From a virus, in the IMG/VR virus record IMGVR_UViG_3300047452_000109, positions 1-31,955 of that record: a DNA stretch of 31,955 bases, one strand, 5' to 3'. Every line of letters begins with the position of its first letter. Position 1 is the stretch's first letter. Below, piece after piece: positions 1,824-29,428 of this stretch. The position numbers and the translations under genes were made by a program. The notes beneath the pieces are model-generated. The model was not told the DNA's origin and did not search any database. It was given only the letters and a program-made list of their open reading frames with translations.

Positions 1824-2543
1824 TTAGTCGCTCTGAGTTATGTCTACGTCTTGACTGTCGCCTGTGAATGTTGCTTCAATTGTACTACCATCAACACCGC
1901 TTTGTGTAATATCATATGTACTACCGCCGCCTGTGATGTTTAGCGTAATAACGTGTCCGTCTAAACTTGCACCACCGCTTGAGTTAATAGTAATAGCATT
2001 ACCCTCGTCACTGTTAGCACTTGTAGTTGCTAGTGAAGCTGAGTTATCTGAAGTTACAGTAATCACACTGTCAATTCCATCTACAGTTACATTATTAACG
2101 TTGTTGTCGCCATCTACATCAAAAACAATAGTACTTCCGCCAGCGTCATTTGTTTGACCAATGTTGAATGTATATGTGTTATCATCACCATCGCCATCAA
2201 TGTTTAGTGTTACTTCTTCACAGTTTCCTGATCCTGCTGAACCTAAACTATCACAGTTTAGTGTTACAGCATTTGAGTCCCCAAAGAAGTCCCAAGTACC
2301 TGTGTAATCTGCTCCGTTAATGACTGCGTCAATAGTGTTAGTGTTACCCGTTTGTGTAATGCTAAACGTCATATCGTCGCCTTTGATTGTAAAATCTGTT
2401 GTTGAATCACCTATTTCGTTGTCTGTACCATCTTGCACTAGGTCTAAGTCTAAATTATCACCTACTTGGGTAATATAGATATCATTAGCCAGAGCGAAGT
2501 TAGCCATAAACAAGAAAGGTAATATGCGTAAAAATGTTTTCAT
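1824..2543 (-). CDS. Curlin-repeat amyloid subunit
   Basis: The 239-residue protein has a signal peptide (1-19, ending NFALA) followed directly by DIYITQVGDN, nearly the same mature start as the second curlin gene (NEIYVNQVGDN). Curlin-type units (VQDGTDNEI, ITQTGNTNT, IGQTNDAGG, ITQSGVDGS, ITQSD) continue to the last residue. It is very rich in Asp, Asn, Thr, Gly and Ser and almost free of basic residues after the signal. Cys97 and Cys108 are the only mature cysteines. By family knowledge such proteins are secreted unfolded through CsgG and polymerise outside the cell. It lies directly after csgG with a GAGG ribosome-binding site in the 27-base gap. Confidence 0.85.
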   Translation of the reverse strand: MKTFLRILPFLFMANFALANDIYITQVGDNLDLDLVQDGTDNEIGDSTTDFTIKGDDMTFSITQTGNTNTIDAVINGADYTGTWDFFGDSNAVTLNCDSLGSAGSGNCEEVTLNIDGDGDDNTYTFNIGQTNDAGGSTIVFDVDGDNNVNNVTVDGIDSVITVTSDNSASLATTSANSDEGNAITINSSGGASLDGHVITLNITGGGSTYDITQSGVDGSTIEATFTGDSQDVDITQSD

Positions 2544-2570
2544 AATGTGCCCTCGACTTTCGTCTTTATT

Positions 2571-3515
2571 TTATTCCTCGTTTTTATCAATCGGTACACA
2601 TAAGTCATCTGCACTGCAATTTAATCTTGCATCGGGCCACTTCAGTAATGCTTCTTCTAACTTCAATGGTCTTACTTCAGGCAACTTGCCTGTATACGTC
2701 TTGTCTTTAAATTTCCACAGATTCCGAATTTCACCTTCAGAAACTATTTCAATTACTCCCTGTTCTATCGCTGCTCGTACCGCATAGTTAACTGGTTCGT
2801 TAACACTGTAGCCGGTTTCAGCTTCTACAAGTTTTGTCCCCAAGTCAAAAAACTTGAAGATGTCCGCTCCGGACCTATAGCTCGCGATTGTTTTCTCGGT
2901 TGCTATACTCATAAGCACTTTCCCTGTGCTTACGCTCACTAAACGCATTACTACAGTCACAGTATCAACTCGATACTCAGTCTGCATACCTACGCCTAGG
3001 TATCTCGCTCCTGCACCACCTACTGCTGTGTTGCTATCATACCCGACAATTCCCCCTTCAAGTATGAGCCCTGCAAACAACATAGGCTTTAACGGTGTAG
3101 GACCGTTTGGAAGTTGTTTTTCATAAACTTCCCGTGTACTTCGAATAAGTTGACGTTCTTTAATCAAATTATCCATACCCACACGCTCTACAACTTCAAA
3201 CCAGGCGCCGTTACCTACATCTTGAAGTGCTTTGATAACCCAAACCTCTGATCCTTGGGTAACTGCACTCGACAAGTTGGCGATATTGTCCGCCGGCTTA
3301 CGCTGTCCTGTTGCATCTCTGAAACCATAAACAGCGATAGTAATCTTTGGTCCATCTAAAGCGGGAACCGCCGCTAGCCTATCTTCAATCGGACTAACTT
3401 GTACTGTTGGTGATTCCTTTGTATCTTCTAGAATCTGCAAGCTAGTGCTTGTCGCACAGCCCTGCAATAGTAGTACACTGAATCCAAATAGTAAAAGCGT
3501 CTTTATCATTCGCAT
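2571..3515 (-). CDS. csgG: CsgG-type curli secretion channel lipoprotein
   Basis: The 314-residue protein begins with a lipoprotein signal ending LLLQGC (lipidated Cys20). The CsgG domain spans about 55-265: the ITIAVYGFRDATGQ strand, the FEVVERVGMDNLIKERQ segment, the GGIVGYDSN stretch with a Gly-rich loop, and TVTVVMRLVSVSTGKV. The length exceeds that of E. coli CsgG (277) by a C-terminal extension of about 40 residues that contains Cys300 and Cys306. By family knowledge it forms the outer-membrane nonamer that exports curlins. The ATG at 3515 overlaps the csgF stop (TAATG). An ATG two codons downstream (MIKTL) is an alternative start. Confidence 0.95.
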   Translation of the reverse strand: MRMIKTLLLFGFSVLLLQGCATSTSLQILEDTKESPTVQVSPIEDRLAAVPALDGPKITIAVYGFRDATGQRKPADNIANLSSAVTQGSEVWVIKALQDVGNGAWFEVVERVGMDNLIKERQLIRSTREVYEKQLPNGPTPLKPMLFAGLILEGGIVGYDSNTAVGGAGARYLGVGMQTEYRVDTVTVVMRLVSVSTGKVLMSIATEKTIASYRSGADIFKFFDLGTKLVEAETGYSVNEPVNYAVRAAIEQGVIEIVSEGEIRNLWKFKDKTYTGKLPEVRPLKLEEALLKWPDARLNCSADDLCVPIDKNEE

Positions 3516-3976
3516 TAGAAATTAAACTCCCCTGCGCCTGGTATAGTGATTTCGGTAGTAGTACCGTCCGCACCAACGATTGTCAATGTTATACTGCCTG
3601 TAGTAGGATCTTTAACCCAAGTAAGTTGTGAGCCTTCGATCTCTGCTGAGCCTGTATTAGTGCAAGTATCTCCACAATCAGCAAACATAGCGTCTACCAT
3701 TTGTTTACTTAGATTAGCGTAAATTCTACTTTCAATATTTCTAAGAAATTTATTTAAAGTAGTGTTTTCTAATTCACGCTCAATACGAGCTGCTTCTGCC
3801 TCTGCTGCCTTCCGCAAATCTTCTTTCCGATTATGTTGTAGTTGCTCTACACTTAAAACGTGTGTAGAATAGCCATTCCCATAATGAAAAGCCGGAGATT
3901 TAAACCCCCACACAAGTTCAGCATTGGCCGGACTTGCTATTGCTAATAATCCAACTATTATACATATTTTTTTCAT
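3515..3976 (-). CDS. csgF: CsgF-like curli assembly factor
   Basis: The 153-residue protein has a signal peptide (1-19, ending SPANA). The mature N-terminus reads ELVWGFKSPAFHYGN, matching the CsgF N-terminal segment (FxNPxFGGN) that plugs into the CsgG channel. A charged helix (about 48-70) and a C-terminal beta region rich in Thr, Ile and Gly (about 115-153) follow, as in CsgF. Cys101 and Cys105 form a close pair. It is the promoter-proximal gene of the curli cluster: a perfect TATAAATA box lies at 3995-4002 and a GGAG ribosome site precedes the ATG. CsgE, CsgC and CsgD homologues are not in the window. Confidence 0.88.
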   Translation of the reverse strand: MKKICIIVGLLAIASPANAELVWGFKSPAFHYGNGYSTHVLSVEQLQHNRKEDLRKAAEAEAARIERELENTTLNKFLRNIESRIYANLSKQMVDAMFADCGDTCTNTGSAEIEGSQLTWVKDPTTGSITLTIVGADGTTTEITIPGAGEFNF

Positions 3977-5446: not shown

Positions 5447-5454
5447 TATTTATG
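5447..5454 (-). promoter_or_regulatory. Late-type promoter box before the nuclease-like gene
   Basis: The minus strand reads CATAAATA, overlapping the stop codon of the bilin reductase gene and 19 bases upstream of the next ATG. It would give this gene its own late transcript, separate from the bilin genes. Confidence 0.45.
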
Positions 5455-6142
5455 CTAGTTTAGGGAATAACATATCTGTACAGAACTTGTCTACATCAGC
5501 TTCGTCAAGTCCTAGACTTTTCATTACATTAGGAGTATGCGGATTTTGTTGCTGGTTATGGCAATAGTAGTCTTGTGATGCTTGCACCATTTCTCTAATG
5601 CCCTCACCTTTAGATAATCCTACTTCGCCAAAGTATGCTCGCAAGTTATCTAACGCAATACGAATAATTTCTGTTGCTTCTTCTTCTGTCTTTACATTAC
5701 CAGCGGCAAGCATTTTACCTGTGAAAATATTACGTGCCCACTCTGGCAGTTCACGTTGCTTCTCTGGTACAAAGTGTTCTACACTTTCAAAGTAACCTTG
5801 TATCATAGGGTGGTCTGGATCAGCACTAGGTGAAAAGTCGTGAAAGGCTCCTGTCATTTTGTTCTTACCAGCAATAACATCAAAGCCGTAAATAGGTGCA
5901 GGATTATCTAGTGTCGGAAAGATGCATACGTGCATCATCCAGAGGCCTTTACTTGTTCGAGCATCAACAACGTCAATGTGTGCTCTGCGTACAGAGCTAT
6001 TAGCCCAAACACGATTAATCCAACCACCATCGGGCCTATTAAAATAATCAAGTCCGGGTTCATTAATTTCTGTAGCCTGTTCGTCAAATATTGAGATAAT
6101 CTCATTCTGACACTCAATCAGTTTGTTCCAGATAATGCTCAA
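5450..6142 (-). CDS. pcyX: Ferredoxin-dependent bilin reductase, PcyX type
   Basis: The 230-residue protein carries the core of the ferredoxin-dependent bilin reductases: AHIDVVDA (54-61), LWMMHVCIFP (67-76), PAPIYGFDVIAG (81-92) and GAFHDFSP (98-105). His71 and Asp88 are 17 residues apart, exactly as His88 and Asp105 of PcyA. Asp57 sits where PcyA has its catalytic Glu76, the Glu-to-Asp change reported for PcyX from marine phage metagenomes, which makes phycoerythrobilin rather than phycocyanobilin. It would act on biliverdin from the overlapping heme oxygenase gene, with reduced ferredoxin presumably from the host, as none is encoded here. The start is TTG at 6142 with GGAG seven bases upstream; no in-frame ATG exists before the conserved core. 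Confidence 0.9.
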   Translation of the reverse strand: MSIIWNKLIECQNEIISIFDEQATEINEPGLDYFNRPDGGWINRVWANSSVRRAHIDVVDARTSKGLWMMHVCIFPTLDNPAPIYGFDVIAGKNKMTGAFHDFSPSADPDHPMIQGYFESVEHFVPEKQRELPEWARNIFTGKMLAAGNVKTEEEATEIIRIALDNLRAYFGEVGLSKGEGIREMVQASQDYYCHNQQQNPHTPNVMKSLGLDEADVDKFCTDMLFPKLA

Positions 6143-6686
6143 TTTCTAACTCCATTAGTTCTTTAAATAATTGTGTTGCGCTTTCAAATACATATTTTGC
6201 TTCGTCTGCCATTTCATCAGTAGTGCAATTTCTAATTGCATCTTTAACAGCTTGTAAGTCTCCATCAAACTGATACATACGTCCTTCGCCTGGGACTTTC
6301 TTTTTAATCATTTGCCCGCCACTTAGGTCGCCCATATGTAAAACGTAGATATGTGCCATAACTGCTTCTTTATCGTGCATAATAGTTTTCATATGATTAA
6401 TGTATTCGTGTGTACTAGGCACAAGTGGTGGAGGATTTTCTTTATCTTCCCATAATTCTAAAAAGTCTTTTTCAATTGCCATTTTACGCTGTATCGGAAA
6501 TGGGATGTCTAACCAAATTCCATTGATAGCCGCTATTGCTTCTAACAAATCATATTTCTTATGTTGGTTCCATAAGTATGTTGCGTAAAATTGTGGATTA
6601 ATTTTTCCACTCATTAATACTTTTACATAGCCTTGACGCTCTGCATTTGTATGTGCTTCTTTGGTTAGTTCTTTTAAATTGCTCAT
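6114..6686 (-). CDS. Heme oxygenase (heme to biliverdin)
   Basis: The 190-residue protein is a short HO-1-type heme oxygenase. His12 in LTKEAHTNAE is the expected axial heme ligand, and GDLSGGQ (119-125) is the conserved distal-helix glycine motif that contacts heme and oxygen. The length is close to bacterial and cyanophage forms and shorter than animal ones, with no C-terminal membrane anchor. It converts heme to biliverdin, CO and Fe2+ using ferredoxin-type electrons. Its 3' end overlaps the bilin reductase start by 29 bases, and its ATG overlaps the clpS stop (ATGA), so the genes form one translation unit. A GGAGGA ribosome site precedes the start. Confidence 0.95.
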   Translation of the reverse strand: MSNLKELTKEAHTNAERQGYVKVLMSGKINPQFYATYLWNQHKKYDLLEAIAAINGIWLDIPFPIQRKMAIEKDFLELWEDKENPPPLVPSTHEYINHMKTIMHDKEAVMAHIYVLHMGDLSGGQMIKKKVPGEGRMYQFDGDLQAVKDAIRNCTTDEMADEAKYVFESATQLFKELMELEIEHYLEQTD

Positions 6687-6988
6687 TCTTCCTCCAATTT
6701 GATCTGTAATGGGAATCCACGTTCTCTACTTGCTGACACTGCTTCTAACGAGCGTTGTTCTGCAATTTCATATGTATATATGCCTGCAATGCCTGCACCG
6801 TCGTTATGAATGATCATTGTTAGATCTTGTGCAGTTGCTTGTGAATGTTTAAATATTGATACTAATACTTCAATTACCCATTCCATTGGGGTTTCATTAT
6901 CATTTAATAAAACCACTTTGTATCTTGGTGGTACCAAAACAATTTCGTCAATTTTTTCATCAATTACAATATCTGTGTCTGTACTCAT
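6683..6988 (-). CDS. clpS: ClpS, ClpAP N-degron adaptor
   Basis: The 101-residue protein has the full ClpS domain after a 20-residue acidic tail: PRYKVVLLNDNETPMEWVIE (21-40) holds the Asn29-Asp30 and Met35 parts of the N-degron pocket, and IIHNDGAGIAGIYTYEIAE (59-77) holds the conserved His61. By family knowledge it delivers substrates with destabilising N-termini to ClpA and blocks ClpA degradation of SsrA-tagged proteins. A phage copy could redirect host proteolysis during infection, notable as the phage also encodes a tmRNA at 18525-18772. It is followed by heme oxygenase with an ATGA overlap. Confidence 0.93.
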   Translation of the reverse strand: MSTDTDIVIDEKIDEIVLVPPRYKVVLLNDNETPMEWVIEVLVSIFKHSQATAQDLTMIIHNDGAGIAGIYTYEIAEQRSLEAVSASRERGFPLQIKLEEE

Positions 6989-7008
6989 TTGTTCCTCTCT
7001 AACTAAGT

Positions 7009-7028
7009 GGGGGGCGTTGCCACCCCCC
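7009..7028. other. G/C-rich hairpin between hsp20 and clpS
   Basis: Six G (7009-7014) pair with six C (7023-7028) around an 8-base loop, between the hsp20 stop and the clpS start. No T-tract follows on the minus strand, so it is not a classical terminator; it may stabilise or process the mRNA. Confidence 0.4.
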
Positions 7029-7036
7029 TAGCCTGT

Positions 7037-7489
7037 TTACTTGCTGTCGATTACTGACGAATCATTAATCTTAATTGTTTTAGGCTTTAGTGCTTCTGGT
7101 ACTTCACGTACTAAATGCACATTCAGCATACCTAATTCAAGGTTTGCATTTGCTACCTTAACGTGGTCAGCAAGTGTGAACTCTCTACGGAAGTTGCGTC
7201 CGCCAATACCTTTGTGTAGGTAATTAACATCTTCATCTCCTTTAGGAGCAGTTCCCTCAATCTTTAATTGATCACCATCTGTTGTGATTGAAAGATTGTC
7301 CATACCAAAGCCAGCAACGGCTAATGAGATCATATACTCATCTTCGTTGATCTGTGCAATGTTGTATGGGGGATAACCATTTCCGTTTGGACTATTTGCG
7401 AACTGTCTTTCCATTTCGTTGAATAGTCTGTCAAAGCCAATAGTAGCTCTGTGGAAGTTTGGTAGGTCTAGAGTTGTTAGTCTTGTCAT
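7037..7489 (-). CDS. Small heat-shock protein, Hsp20/IbpA type
   Basis: The 150-residue protein has an IbpA-like N-terminus (FHRATIGFDRLFNEMER), an alpha-crystallin domain (about 38-130; YNIAQINEDEYMISLAVAGF, GRNFRREFTLADHVKV) and a C-terminal I-x-I motif (TIKI) used for oligomer assembly. Such holdases bind unfolded proteins and pass them to refolding chaperones. It lies downstream of groES and groEL, consistent with a phage chaperone set. A GATAAATA box at 7550-7557 and an AGGAG site precede it, so it may be transcribed separately from groEL. Confidence 0.92.
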   Translation of the reverse strand: MTRLTTLDLPNFHRATIGFDRLFNEMERQFANSPNGNGYPPYNIAQINEDEYMISLAVAGFGMDNLSITTDGDQLKIEGTAPKGDEDVNYLHKGIGGRNFRREFTLADHVKVANANLELGMLNVHLVREVPEALKPKTIKINDSSVIDSK

Positions 7490-7524
7490 TGTTTTCTCCT
7501 TATAATAAGCAAGATTAATATTAA

Positions 7525-7545
7525 TGTAACCCTTTCGGCGTTACA
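7525..7545 (-). other. GAAA-tetraloop hairpin in the hsp20 leader
   Basis: On the minus strand TGTAACGCC and GGGTTACA pair around a GAAA loop with one bulged G. It lies between the GATAAATA box (7550-7557) and the hsp20 ribosome site, so it would fold in the 5' leader. No T-tract follows. Its role is unknown. Confidence 0.4.
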
Positions 7546-7549
7546 CATT

Positions 7550-7557
7550 TATTTATC
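7550..7557 (-). promoter_or_regulatory. Late-type promoter box before hsp20
   Basis: The minus strand reads GATAAATA, just after the groEL stop codon and about 60 bases upstream of the hsp20 ATG. Confidence 0.45.
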
Positions 7558-7559
7558 AT

Positions 7560-9203
7560 CTAATAATCCATTGGATCCGGAGCGTGAACACTTTCTGGAT
7601 CAAAAGGTTTATCTTTTGCGTCCAAAGGTTGTGTAATAGTAATGCTACAATCTGATGTAATCAGCAATCCAGCAATACTCGCCGCGTTTTCCAATGCAGT
7701 CTTAGTGACTTTAACCGGATCAATAATGCCCATTTGCATCATATCACCGTATTCTCCAGTAGCGGCATTATAACCATAATTGTCACTACCTTCAAGAATT
7801 TTGTTAACAACAACATCAGGTGATTCGCCTGCGTTATCTACAATTTGTCTAATAGGAGCTTCAAGTGCTTTTGCTACAATGTTAACTCCTGCTGTTTGAT
7901 CAACATTAGTAATGTTAGTGTCTGCTAGTGCAGACTTTGCTCTCATTAATGCTACTCCGCCGCCTGCTACAATACCGTCGCCAATGGCTGCTCTAGTTGC
8001 GTTTAATGCATCGTCATATCGATCTTTCTTTTCGTTAATTTCTACTTCACTACGTCCGCCAACTTTAATAACAGCAACACCGCCTGTAAGTTTAGCTAAA
8101 CGGTTGCGTAGTTTATCAGCGTTATAATCATTAGAAGCAGTTGATAACTGTGTTCTAATATGCTGTACACGTTCTTCAATTACTTCTGGGTCACCTCTAC
8201 CACCAATAAAGGTTGTAGTTAACTGGTCAACTTCAATGCGGTCACAAACACCTAATTGTTCAAGTGTAGCTGTGGTTAAATCTCTATTAAGTTCCTTAGA
8301 GAAAACTGTTCCGCCTGTCAGCGTTGCAATATCTTCTAATGCTGGAAGTCTACGATCTGCAAAACTTGGTGCTGTTACTACACAACATTTTAAAGAACCG
8401 TTCTGATGATTCATTAATAGTGTTTGCATAGGAATTTCTTCAATGTCTTCTGCAACAATCAAAATAGGGCAACGTGTTTTCGATACTTCGTCTAGCAACG
8501 GTACTATATCTGCAATATCTGTAATTGTTTTATCATATAAGAAAACAAAGCAATCTTCTAATACAGTTTTAAGTGCTTCGTGGTCAGTGGAAAAATAAGC
8601 ATTCATATAACCACGATCAATTTGTAATCCAGTTACAACTTCTAGTTCATCCTCTAAACCTTTAGCTGTTTCAATTGAAATAGCACCTTCTTTGCCTACT
8701 GCTTCTAATCCTTCGGCAATGTTTTTACCAATAGACGCATCTGAGTTAGCTGATAACTGTGCCACTTGCATTATTTCTTCTGATGCAGAACAAGTTTTAG
8801 CTTTAGTAGTTAATTCTTCGCACACTTTATCTGAAGCATAATCAATGCCTCTTTTTAAATCCATTGGATGAAATCCTGCCGCAACCAATTTTAATCCTTC
8901 AGTAACAATTGCCTGTGTTAATACTGTTGCTGTAGTCGTGCCATCGCCTGCTTTTGATGCAGTATTTGCGGCTGCTTCGTACACCATTACAGAACCCATA
9001 TTTTCTAAAGGATCTTTAAGCCATACTTCTTTAGCAACACTAACACCGTCTTTGGTTACTGTAGGTCTTTTAAAAGGTTGTTGGATAATGACATTTCGAC
9101 CTTTTGGGCCTAGTGTGCTTTTTACAGCGTTAGATATTGTATTAATCCCCACCATTAGTTTATTATGGCTTTCTGATCCAAATCTTACATCTCTATAATC
9201 CAT
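7560..9203 (-). CDS. groEL: GroEL chaperonin (Hsp60)
   Basis: The protein is full length at 547 residues and collinear with bacterial GroEL: TLGPKGRNVIIQ and VTKDGVSVAKE at the N-terminus, the GDGTTTATVL ATP-binding segment, and a C-terminal equatorial domain with GDGIVAGGGVALMRA and ITSDCSI. The C-terminus ends HAPDPMDY rather than in the flexible Gly-Gly-Met tail of most bacterial GroELs, so the cavity floor differs. It probably forms the folding cage with the adjacent GroES, perhaps for phage capsid or tail proteins as host GroEL does for T4 gp23. AGGAG precedes the ATG, and an AATAAATA box overlaps the end of groES (9229-9236). Confidence 0.97.
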   Translation of the reverse strand: MDYRDVRFGSESHNKLMVGINTISNAVKSTLGPKGRNVIIQQPFKRPTVTKDGVSVAKEVWLKDPLENMGSVMVYEAAANTASKAGDGTTTATVLTQAIVTEGLKLVAAGFHPMDLKRGIDYASDKVCEELTTKAKTCSASEEIMQVAQLSANSDASIGKNIAEGLEAVGKEGAISIETAKGLEDELEVVTGLQIDRGYMNAYFSTDHEALKTVLEDCFVFLYDKTITDIADIVPLLDEVSKTRCPILIVAEDIEEIPMQTLLMNHQNGSLKCCVVTAPSFADRRLPALEDIATLTGGTVFSKELNRDLTTATLEQLGVCDRIEVDQLTTTFIGGRGDPEVIEERVQHIRTQLSTASNDYNADKLRNRLAKLTGGVAVIKVGGRSEVEINEKKDRYDDALNATRAAIGDGIVAGGGVALMRAKSALADTNITNVDQTAGVNIVAKALEAPIRQIVDNAGESPDVVVNKILEGSDNYGYNAATGEYGDMMQMGIIDPVKVTKTALENAASIAGLLITSDCSITITQPLDAKDKPFDPESVHAPDPMDY

Positions 9204-9228
9204 TTTATCTCCTTTTATATTACTAAAT

Positions 9229-9236
9229 TATTTATT
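9229..9236 (-). promoter_or_regulatory. Late-type promoter box before groEL
   Basis: The minus strand reads AATAAATA, 25 bases upstream of the groEL ATG and overlapping the groES stop. It would boost groEL over groES. Confidence 0.35.
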
Positions 9237-9525
9237 GTGCTACTAGTGCAACTATCTCAGATTCGACTATGGTTACATATTCTTCTTCTTGATGAGAAAA
9301 CTTGTAACCACTACTAGCATTAATCAATACTTGATCTCCTACTTTAGTAGTTGTAGCAACAAATTGCTTTTTAGCTTCGTCATACGTTCCCGGACCTACT
9401 GCTAAAACTTCGCCTTGGGTGATACCCTCGTGCTTTACGTTTGCAATAATAATTCCGCCAGATGTTTCTGTTTCAGGGTCGTCAATTTTTAAAATAACTT
9501 TATCTTGTATCGCTCTTATATTCAT
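9232..9525 (-). CDS. groES: GroES co-chaperonin (Hsp10)
   Basis: The protein is 97 residues, the standard length: IRAIQDKVILKIDDPETETS, then the mobile loop with GGIIIANV that docks onto GroEL, GEVLAVGPGTYDE, GDQVLINASSGYKF and EEEYVTIVESEIVALV. It caps the GroEL cage. The order groES then groEL matches bacteria, unlike T4, which encodes only a GroES substitute (gp31). The start lies 3 bases after the guaC stop. Confidence 0.96.
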   Translation of the reverse strand: MNIRAIQDKVILKIDDPETETSGGIIIANVKHEGITQGEVLAVGPGTYDEAKKQFVATTTKVGDQVLINASSGYKFSHQEEEYVTIVESEIVALVAQ

Positions 9526-26979: not shown

Positions 26980-27661
26980 ACAACTTTGCTTGTTGCTCAT
27001 AAAACTGGTAGACGCGGTTGTACCATTCAGTACGCCACTCGTCGTATTCATCAGGCCAAATATCAAACTGTTGATACTCACCTGCACGGCTACACATAAA
27101 CACGTGACCTTCACGTATATCTGTGCCAAATATTTCATTGTGTGCTTCAGCATAGGCTGTTAGCTGTAAGAAGTAATCTACTACCCACTCTAGTTTCTTA
27201 GGTTTATTGGTTTGCTTGAAGTCCATAATCGCAGGCTGTCCTTTGTATGTTCCTACTAAGTCAGTAGTTCCTGCATACATCTGCGGCATATACAAATTAA
27301 CTTCACTACCCCATACTACAACGTCATCCATTACTTGATCTTTGATAACTTGTGCCATACCGTGTGCTTGTTGTGCATACGGATTGCTTCCAGGTTGCGG
27401 CCATTCACCAGTCTCAACATAGTCCTCAAGGTACTTGTGCATCCTTGTTCCTACACTGGCTGCTTCAGTTACAATCTCTTGTGCTTTCTTTTCGCCTACA
27501 CGCTTGCGCCACGCAATAAGATGTGACTTATCCTTAGTGGCGTCTAAGATTGTAGTAACGCTTGCTACAGCGTTGCCATCAGGAGTTGCGTATAAACGCT
27601 TACCGTCTACTTGTTTCCTGCTTATTGGTTGATAGTCATACTTCTTTTGTATTAGACTCAT
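26975..27661 (-). CDS. RecB/Cas4-like PD-(D/E)XK exonuclease
   Basis: The 228-residue protein shows the whole RecB-family pattern: GTRMHKYLED (71-80, His75), Glu120 in WGSEVNLY, Asp134 in YAGTTDLVG, Asp147-x-Lys149 in PAIMDFKQ, and the QLTAYAEA (166-173) Q-x3-Y motif. Such enzymes degrade or process DNA ends in phage replication and recombination. It overlaps the NfuA-like gene by 26 bases and has GGAG upstream of its ATG. Confidence 0.9.
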   Translation of the reverse strand: MSLIQKKYDYQPISRKQVDGKRLYATPDGNAVASVTTILDATKDKSHLIAWRKRVGEKKAQEIVTEAASVGTRMHKYLEDYVETGEWPQPGSNPYAQQAHGMAQVIKDQVMDDVVVWGSEVNLYMPQMYAGTTDLVGTYKGQPAIMDFKQTNKPKKLEWVVDYFLQLTAYAEAHNEIFGTDIREGHVFMCSRAGEYQQFDIWPDEYDEWRTEWYNRVYQFYEQQAKLS

Positions 27662-28007
27662 TCAGTTCTCCGTTGCTAATGTCTCGAGTATTAATTAAAT
27701 CTGATTGCATCGACTGGAATGGATCTTGTTGATAGTATGGCATTACATTAGAGTTAGGGTCGTCAACACTATCTACTTGTTTAATTTCAGGTACATAATG
27801 TTTAAGCATATTCTCTACACCCATCTTCAATGTCATTGTACTACCTGCACATCCTGAGCAGGCGCCTCCTAATTCTAGCAATACTGTACCTGCATCAAAG
27901 GTTACAAAACTAATTGTTCCTCCGTGGCTGGCTACTGCTGGCTTTACGTGGCTTTCTAATAACTCCTTAATTGCAATTATTACCTCTTCGTTACTTCGTT
28001 CAGTCAT
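27636..28007 (-). CDS. NifU C-terminal/NfuA-like Fe-S cluster carrier
   Basis: The 123-residue protein consists of the NifU C-terminal domain: SHVKPAVASHGGTISFVTFD followed by TVLLELGGACSGCAGSTMTL with Cys50 and Cys53 (CSGC) that bind a 4Fe-4S cluster between two subunits. The following KMGVENMLKHYVPEIKQVDSV is typical. A C-terminal tail of about 30 residues is added. It might deliver clusters to phage or host Fe-S proteins, for example the ferredoxin needed by the bilin genes. It has an AGGAGG site and a strong early-type promoter. Confidence 0.9.
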   Translation of the reverse strand: MTERSNEEVIIAIKELLESHVKPAVASHGGTISFVTFDAGTVLLELGGACSGCAGSTMTLKMGVENMLKHYVPEIKQVDSVDDPNSNVMPYYQQDPFQSMQSDLINTRDISNGELNESNTKEV

Positions 28008-28029
28008 AAGACCTCCTATTAATTAGTAT

Positions 28030-28058
28030 AGTATAATACTAATTTAATCAATTGTCAA
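28030..28058 (-). promoter_or_regulatory. Consensus sigma70 promoter of the NfuA-like gene
   Basis: TTGACA (28058-28053) and TATACT (28035-28030), spaced by 17 bases on the minus strand, lie about 23 bases before the ATG at 28007. This probably drives nfuA and the RecB-like nuclease early. Confidence 0.75.
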
Positions 28059-28076: not shown

Positions 28077-28421
28077 TTATAGAGGAGCGCCTGGATCTGT
28101 AGCTCTTGATGCCATTGAACTAATTTTGGATCCGCCGTCTGCGCTTGATGTAGCATTGCCCTTATCTAAATCTTGCTTAGTTTTAAGAGTAACACCTGCT
28201 TCTGAAAAGTCTTTACACATTTCTTTTACACGAGGATCTGAATCATATGCGTTTTTAAATGTGCCGTAAACAAAAGACTCACCGCCCATATTTTGCATAA
28301 CTTTATTCAAGTCAACATTAATAGTGTCTTGTTTGATGCCTTCGCGGGTGGGTTTTGTGAAGTGTAAAAAAGCCGGCTTGCCTTTTTGATCAGCGGCCTG
28401 TTGGACCGTTCTCAAAGCCAT
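28077..28421 (-). CDS. C-terminal part of a probable -1 frameshift fusion
   Basis: Read alone from the ATG at 28421 this gives 114 residues, but no Shine-Dalgarno site precedes it and the frame is open upstream to the slippery site at 28463-28469. A -1 shift there would add LVVEAAPQANEKLV and join it to the upstream 322-residue protein as one product of 450 residues (29428 to 28077). The sequence (FLHFTKPTREGIKQDTINVD, YGTFKNAYDSDPRVKEMCKD) suggests an alpha/beta domain of unknown function, with a Ser/Ala-rich end. Separate translation from the internal ATG cannot be excluded. Confidence 0.7.
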   Translation of the reverse strand: MALRTVQQAADQKGKPAFLHFTKPTREGIKQDTINVDLNKVMQNMGGESFVYGTFKNAYDSDPRVKEMCKDFSEAGVTLKTKQDLDKGNATSSADGGSKISSMASRATDPGAPL

Positions 28422-28441
28422 AACCAGCTTCTCGTTAGCTT

Positions 28442-28469
28442 GAGGCGCTGCCTCTACTACTAGTTTTTT
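28442..28469 (-). promoter_or_regulatory. Programmed -1 frameshift signal
   Basis: On the minus strand the heptamer A AAA AAC (28469-28463) stands in the correct frame (AAA AAA AAC TAG) at the end of the 322-residue gene. It is followed by an 8-base spacer holding the TAG stop and a perfect stem-loop GAGGC-AGC-GCCTC (28454-28442). The slippery heptamer is part of a nine-A run. Confidence 0.65.
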
Positions 28470-29428
28470 TTTGAAAGAATTGTACCTAATCGTCTGCTCG
28501 ATTCTAACATAGCTTTGTTGCTACGCTTTACGCTTTCACGCTTTGCACGACCTGCATCTTCTTCGCCGCCTGCCGCTGCGTCAGCTGCGTCTAATGATAC
28601 ATCTAAGTCGTCTGCTGGAGCATCCATATCTACAGTTGGCTCCATATCGCCTTCTGGTTCCATACCCATATCCATTGCTGGTTCAGCTTCGCCTGTTAGT
28701 AATCCAACACCTTGTGTTAAACTTTGGCGTGTGCTTTCCATTGCAGTGTACATACCTTCTAGTGCAGGTTTAACTGTTTGAACAAAACTGTCTGATTTCT
28801 CTTGACCTTGCTCATCACGGATAGCATCTGCTAGTTCTAGCATTGATTCTGTTTGCATTTCAGCAGTGTCTTCCATCCAACCTGTTACACGGTTGACCAT
28901 ATCTTTAGCAGCCATAACAAGCTCTGCTTGATCTTCGGCGCCTTCTTTAACTACTGATTCATTTTTACCTGCAATAGCTTTTTGTAAGCCTGCTGGTAAT
29001 TTCTTTTGCTTTGCTGATAATCCTTTTGCTTCAGCATCTGCTTTTTTATTACCAGCATCAACCATTGCTTTGATACCTTTAGACTTTTTATCTTTAGCTG
29101 CTTTTTTCATATCTTCGTCTTTATCGCCGTCACCGTCGATATCTGCAAAGTCTGGTTTAGCTGCTTCGCTAGTTACTTCTGAACGTTCTGTAATCTCTGC
29201 GTTCAACACATCAAGGAAGAGTTTGTTTTTTTGATATGTTTCGCTTTGAACTATGTTAAAACTTTCATTAGTTTCTACTTGACTAAGTGTTGTGCGTAAT
29301 TTGTTTCGTACGTCTTGTAACTGCTCTAGTGTAAATTTTTCTAATGCAATCTTTTTGCCAAACTTACGGGCAAGGCTTTCATTCAAGCTCTTTGCGGTAA
29401 CTGGTTTTGAAATTTCTCTAATGTTCAT
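28460..29428 (-). CDS. Probable virion/prohead-core protein, frameshift donor
   Basis: The 322-residue protein starts MNIREISKPVTAKSLNESLA, has a helical N-terminal region (about 15-85), a Ca-binding-like DIDGDGDKDE loop (about 97-106), Lys-rich and Glu/Asp-rich stretches and an acidic, Met/Ala-rich region (about 240-290). This composition is like scaffold or prohead-core proteins, but I cannot name the homologue. The last codons are AAA AAA AAC TAG; a -1 shift would extend it by about 128 residues. An ACTAAATA box (29466-29473) and an AGGAAGAG site precede the ATG. Confidence 0.75.
   Translation of the reverse strand: MNIREISKPVTAKSLNESLARKFGKKIALEKFTLEQLQDVRNKLRTTLSQVETNESFNIVQSETYQKNKLFLDVLNAEITERSEVTSEAAKPDFADIDGDGDKDEDMKKAAKDKKSKGIKAMVDAGNKKADAEAKGLSAKQKKLPAGLQKAIAGKNESVVKEGAEDQAELVMAAKDMVNRVTGWMEDTAEMQTESMLELADAIRDEQGQEKSDSFVQTVKPALEGMYTAMESTRQSLTQGVGLLTGEAEPAMDMGMEPEGDMEPTVDMDAPADDLDVSLDAADAAAGGEEDAGRAKRESVKRSNKAMLESSRRLGTILSKKN

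Follow-up and report, generated by a model that had tools for sequence, protein, structure and literature searches.

Known frameshifted genes and the junction described here

C-terminal extensions made by frameshifting are known for the coat protein of phages T3 and T7, for Lactobacillus phage A2 and for Listeria phages (PMC5009743). Two products from one gene are also proven for dnaX, where the shift is ribosomal in E. coli, at the heptamer A-AAA-AAG (PMC5009743), and transcriptional in Thermus thermophilus, on a run of nine A (A9) that is a known slippage site (PMC1088944, PMC5009743); in a Roseiflexus IS, slippage occurs with a hairpin abutting the run (PMC1088944, PMC5009743). In the tail assembly chaperone genes G/GT of phage lambda, a -1 shift at the end of an ORF in the structural region leads into an ORF that has no start of its own.

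Here we describe a junction of two ORFs on the minus strand of a 31,955-nt stretch of viral DNA, referred to below as the window, that shares features with each of these systems. Comparison with related sequences makes us almost certain that programmed -1 recoding takes place at this site, and we consider ribosomal slippage its probable main agent. In the proposed mechanism, two Lys tRNAs would slip by -1 on A-AAA-AAN just before a stop codon, helped in the window phage by a hairpin 8 nt downstream, so that one gene would yield two products, one of 322 aa when translation terminates normally at TAG and one of 450 aa with a folded extension, which presumably provides a second interaction domain on a set fraction of copies. 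The ribosome, and not RNA polymerase, as the slipping agent, the ratio of the 322-aa to the 450-aa product and the entry of both forms into the virion are parts of this mechanism that we infer.

As in gene 10 of T7 and T3 (10A/10B), phage A2 and the Listeria phages, a frameshifted structural gene would produce a second, C-terminally extended product, but the gene belongs to a different family that is not capsid and has no recognised Ig-like domain, the site is of the A9/A-AAA-AAN type, and in relatives the extension has repeatedly become a downstream gene in its own right. The heptamer found in this family is that of E. coli dnaX and the run length that of T. thermophilus dnaX; unlike in either, the two signatures coincide at one site, and it is the longer product that arises from the shift. 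Lambda G/GT likewise has a -1 shift from the end of an ORF of the structural region into a start-less ORF, but here no chaperone homology was found, the protein's relatives carry the annotation of virion structural proteins, and what follows is NifU-like and exonuclease genes and not a tape measure gene. Among isolates, Klebsiella phage RaK2 (ORF135-ORF136), Agrobacterium phage Atu_ph07 (gp044-gp043) and Sinorhizobium phage Phosso encode a first protein homologous to the 322-aa protein, but all three have two distinct genes that each start with an ATG, and no slippery heptamer was seen at their junction. A preliminary description of this DNA knew of no described case in genes of this type; extension of a structural protein by frameshifting is already known (PMC5009743), while this gene family appears new. 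The same can be said of the phage group, the repeated exchange with split genes and the double signature, all of which appear to be new as far as the literature shows.

The junction in the window

The zero-frame ORF of 322 aa (28460..29428, minus strand, as for all features of the junction) ends in TCA AAA AAA AAC TAG. Within its A9 run (28464..28472), two slippery heptamers are in phase, A-AAA-AAA (28472-28466) and A-AAA-AAC (28469-28463), the second of which had been reported and does stand in frame directly before the TAG stop (28462-28460) of the 322-residue gene. A spacer of 8 nt (28462-28455) separates the heptamer from the hairpin GAGGC-AGC-GCCTC (28442..28454), a candidate stimulator of -1 frameshifting; the spacer and perfect GAGGC/GCCTC stem of the preliminary description are thus both present, at 28462-28442. 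The 35 nt after the heptamer fold with -9.0 kcal/mol, compared with a mean of -5.07 for shuffled sequences (z -2.20), a value equalled or bettered by 8 of 200 shuffles. No hairpin abuts the A9 run in the window, and the junction region contains neither a match to an Rfam family nor a terminator-like site.

The -1 frame has no stop between a point 58 nt ahead of the zero-frame stop and a TAA at 28077..28079. As had been proposed, it runs through the next ORF, so that its coding sequence (28080..28463) would add a C-terminal extension of 128 residues and the fused product would have 322 + 128 = 450 aa, reading through ...SKKKLVVEAAPQ. The only ATG, that of a 114-aa ORF (28419..28421), lies 3' of a Leu (L13) that is almost invariant in the domain, and a start there would leave out the conserved residues NEKLV. 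It was said to lack a ribosome site, and indeed no AGGA, GGAG, GAGG or AAGG motif is found at a useful distance from it.

This in-frame ATG at 28421 is what the window itself offers to the explanation that the downstream ORF is made separately, by termination followed by re-initiation at an internal or weak start, with the A run incidental. Its position inside the conserved core and its lack of a Shine-Dalgarno (SD) motif argue against such use, and the related junctions described below lead us to regard re-initiation as very improbable.

Conservation across related junctions

Viral contigs were scanned four times and genomes once, which together with the window yielded 297 sequences. Both proteins could be scored in 295 of them, and grouping by 12-mers shared around the junction left 115 non-redundant clusters. 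An in-phase A-AAA-AAN heptamer within a run of A6 to A10, followed soon by a zero-frame stop and by a homologous domain in the -1 frame, is present in 96 of these clusters. The check that had been named beforehand, namely whether slippery site, stop and -1 frame persist while the surrounding sequence diverges, came out in favour of recoding. Across the group, the extension is 100-130 residues long.

The heptamer and a start codon for the downstream gene exclude each other almost completely. In 83 of the 96 heptamer clusters there is no ATG, GTG or TTG at all before the domain, and an SD-led start occurs in one cluster only (L028), which is the sole cluster with both. The remaining 19 clusters lack the heptamer, and every one of them has an ATG 2-16 nt after the stop, in most cases with a motif of the AAGG/AGGA/AGGT type. 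The association is strong (Fisher p about 1e-20, with clusters treated as independent despite their shared ancestry). On a tree built from both proteins, with the site itself left out, the two states change at least four times on well-supported branches, so the exchange has occurred repeatedly, with a start codon replacing the slippery site each time; we consider these changes a safer argument than p-values that assume independent clusters. As the comparison among relatives shows, the slippery site is swapped as a unit for the downstream gene's own start codon.

These split genes bear on two earlier points. Separate ORFs with a good ribosome site, which the preliminary description would have taken as a refutation, do exist in 19 clusters, yet only where the heptamer is absent, and for that reason they count as support for recoding. 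That the same 19 clusters express the domain from an ATG just after the stop could be read in favour of re-initiation in the window as well, but the 83 heptamer clusters without any ATG, GTG or TTG before the domain, together with the strong synonymous constraint on the slippery codons (below), speak against it.

The preliminary description had named an error in the A9 homopolymer as the main alternative, in which a mistake of sequencing or assembly hides one continuous gene. The site is indeed an A9 run in metagenomic assemblies, but 96 clusters, drawn from many metagenomes, share this break, which is seen at A6 and A8 runs too, and no in-frame fusion of the two proteins was found among the 295 scored loci. 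Since relatives that have lost the A run make the extension as a separate protein, we take the recoding to be real and assign to such an error a negligible probability.

Several loci have further features of their own at this position. Tandem slippery sites, A9G and then A-AAA-AAG 18-21 nt later, directly before the stop, are present in L010, L025, L032 and L161, and L158 has an A9G site near the stop with a separate A8 run upstream. At split-gene loci such as L036, L054 and L148, the downstream ATG lies within a hairpin (GGATACAAAATGAAGGTATCC) just after the stop, which may couple translation of the downstream gene to that of the upstream gene.

Selection on the site and on the -1 frame

The codons of the site are nearly fixed as TCA AAA AAA AAG, while codons vary freely at other invariant Ser and Lys residues of the same gene. 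Where a Ser codon precedes the A run, it is TCA in 81 of 89 sites, compared with 35% of all Ser codons and 50% of Ser codons before Lys in general. Similarly, AAG serves as the third Lys codon at 76 of 83 sites, compared with 26% of Lys codons, so the preference at the site runs opposite to the codon bias. In the -1 frame, the window and its closest relative (L076) differ with dN 0.118 and dS 2.03, indicating purifying selection on the extension. By these comparisons, the -1 frame is shown to be coding without a start of its own and the slippery site to be under selection. Selection on both the site codons and the -1 frame excludes sequencing error: a homopolymer artefact would not account for a heptamer maintained by synonymous constraint.

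Ribosome or RNA polymerase as the slipping agent

The preliminary description proposed a programmed -1 ribosomal frameshift. Recoding to the -1 frame is supported in 96 clusters, but sequence in itself does not separate the ribosome from RNA polymerase on an A9 run. If RNA polymerase slipped on A9 or A10, part of the mRNA would contain one extra A and be translated normally through the fused frame. As the explanation of the site we hold this to be rather unlikely; even so, polymerase slippage is a serious rival or partner of ribosomal slippage.

The length of the runs fits polymerase slippage well, as 87 of the 96 sites, the window among them, have A9 or longer, all 14 sites without AAG have runs of at least 9 A, and other A9 runs are scarce in these ORFs (7 in 120 kb). 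The favoured TCA codon also lengthens the run and is not needed for A-AAA-AAG. However, five A6 and four A8 sites persist; all nine keep exactly A-AAA-AAG, and only the one in L028 comes with an SD-led start. On the tree, the main A6 lineage branches from within A9/A10 relatives, which means that the heptamer must have been enough once the run became shorter. In addition, it is AAG and not AAA that ends the Lys run in nearly all sites.

Hairpins point in both directions as well. A strong downstream hairpin at frameshift distance is present in 30 of the 96 clusters, compared with 8.8 expected from synonymous recoding, an enrichment that favours the ribosome over the polymerase. The closest relative of the window has a different hairpin, AGTCT-CCAC-AGACT, at nearly the same place. 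Conservation of the stem among relatives had also been named as support; hairpins are enriched, but about two thirds of the 96 clusters have no strong one downstream. The folding signal that follows the site is modest on average (mean z about -0.8), and the split-gene relatives also fold after the junction, around their start codons.

On the upstream side, 24 clusters have a strong hairpin whose end lies 0-3 nt from the start of the run, compared with 3.4 expected from synonymous recoding. In the best-sampled lineage, this hairpin has compensated pairs (A-T/T-A, 7:7; T-A/C-G, 5:8; 16 clusters), for example AGTAC-GGAGA-GTACT and AGCAC-GGAGA-GTGCT in the lineage typified by L010 and L018. Such hairpins were seen in L010, L018, L046, L063, L070, L134, L147, L170, L214 and L218-L220. 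A hairpin in the nascent RNA that abuts the run could stimulate slippage of the polymerase in one lineage, and there are precedents both for the A9 run, in T. thermophilus dnaX, and for the abutting hairpin, in the Roseiflexus IS (PMC1088944, PMC5009743). The covariation suggests that the abutting hairpin of the L010/L018-type lineage is a stimulator of transcriptional slippage.

For the window, ribosomal frameshifting is the better reading, because a hairpin is present downstream and none abuts the run upstream, the latter being a point against transcriptional slippage there. Its site has several of the features by which -1 ribosomal frameshifting is recognised: a heptamer of the X-XXY-YYZ form before a stop, a start-less -1 frame under purifying selection and a hairpin about 5-9 nt downstream. 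The ribosomal reading is weakened by AAC in place of AAG, as heptamers ending in AAC are less shifty than those ending in AAG in E. coli (PMC5009743). We found no sign of an internal SD stimulator upstream, in that AGG-forming Leu codons were not enriched over other Leu-Gly pairs. Some bacterial -1 frameshift sites lack such a stimulator.

A further possibility, doubtful on present evidence, is that one site serves two machines, with the A9-A10 run causing RNA polymerase to slip, the A-AAA-AAG end causing the ribosome to slip, and lineages shifting the balance between them. The upstream abutting hairpin would then be found where the polymerase dominates and the downstream hairpin where the ribosome does. 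If this were true, the family would provide a natural series in which one recoding mechanism replaces another within one phage gene family, and the same series would also show a fused gene splitting into two.

Whichever machine slips, the switching between a slippery site with no start and an own start with no site is an unusually clean evolutionary test of function, and the family offers matched sites (A6, A8, A9 and A10 runs; AAG, AAC and AAA ends; hairpins before or after) for separating slippage mechanisms. With these junctions, a widespread case of recoding, which probably lies in a virion gene, is added to what is known of uncultured phages, most of them marine; standard gene calling would not recover the second product in its true form.

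Identity of the two proteins

The 322-aa protein is helical, with an acidic low-complexity stretch near its C-terminus, and matches PHROG 14154, 'virion structural protein' (E 5.7e-13). BLAST found no matches among isolated phages, either for the junction region or for the 322-aa protein, and a distant family member reached Atu_ph07 at E 0.5 only, a relationship that was firmed by the PHROG match and by profile searches. A profile of the first protein matched Atu_ph07 gp044 (6.8e-15), RaK2 ORF135 (1.2e-5) and also the Phosso protein, with E values from 1e-5 to 7e-17 over the three phages. The 322-aa protein is therefore a probable virion structural protein of RaK2/Atu_ph07-like jumbo phages. 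By position, gp044 falls within the Atu_ph07 cluster CDS 31-76, from which 29 proteins were detected in virions by mass spectrometry (PMC6102473). RaK2 functions were assigned by similarity and/or MS/MS (PMC3622015). In that phage, the adjoining ORF135 and ORF136, the second of them small, both carry the annotation virion structural protein, and the genes after them, exonuclease, nrdA and nrdB, have the order found in the window.

The preliminary description placed the two ORFs in the head region, a label that we find unsupported because the capsid genes lie elsewhere: in RaK2 the capsid gene is at 86-88 kb and ORF135 at 125 kb, in Atu_ph07 the capsid is gp215, and in a 335-kb contig with the site the capsid gene is about 210 kb from this gene pair. 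Neither homology to capsid genes nor a place beside them supports a head (capsid) gene; the relatives carry the annotation of virion structural proteins.

The extension matches RaK2 ORF136 weakly, in a C-terminal motif only, and profile comparison found no homology to Atu_ph07 gp043 or to the second protein of Phosso. Its residues 10-100 are predicted to form a confident alpha/beta domain (pLDDT >90 over most of it) in which the order of helices and strands is winged-helix-like. A Foldseek search of the extension against the PDB and viral models returned nothing at E 0.001, and the best VIA-align Z was about 5, mostly for winged-helix domains; this likeness was judged too weak to name a function.

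The phage group and neighbouring genes

The phages that carry this junction form a large group, uncultured and for the most part marine, with jumbo phages such as RaK2 among its relatives. The 335-kb contig carries a RaK2-like capsid gene (60% identity), so that some members of the group, at least, belong to the RaK2-like jumbo phages. That contig (L082, PBPT01000016.1) is filed under a Neomarinimicrobiota MAG; as it has a RaK2-like major capsid gene and the gene pair, it probably represents a jumbo phage that was binned into a bacterial genome, another contig of which also gives the capsid match.

In the window, the frameshifted gene is followed directly by a gene for a NifU-like protein (27636-28058, E 1.5e-25), preceded by a sigma-70-like promoter, TTGACA-17-TATACT, and by AGGAGG; a NifU-like ORF also follows in L082 and L083. 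Farther away are curli-type genes (1824-3976; CsgG, E 5.8e-49; CsgF, 1.6e-11), beside which a protein with a weak curlin-repeat match is encoded, and a block of chaperone and proteolysis genes (6683-9525) with ClpS, Hsp20 and GroEL and, as judged by eye, a small GroES-like ORF. Between these blocks, adjacent genes for a heme oxygenase and a ferredoxin-dependent bilin reductase (5450-6686; Pfam E 3e-21 and 7e-17) constitute, by their domain matches, a phage bilin pathway.
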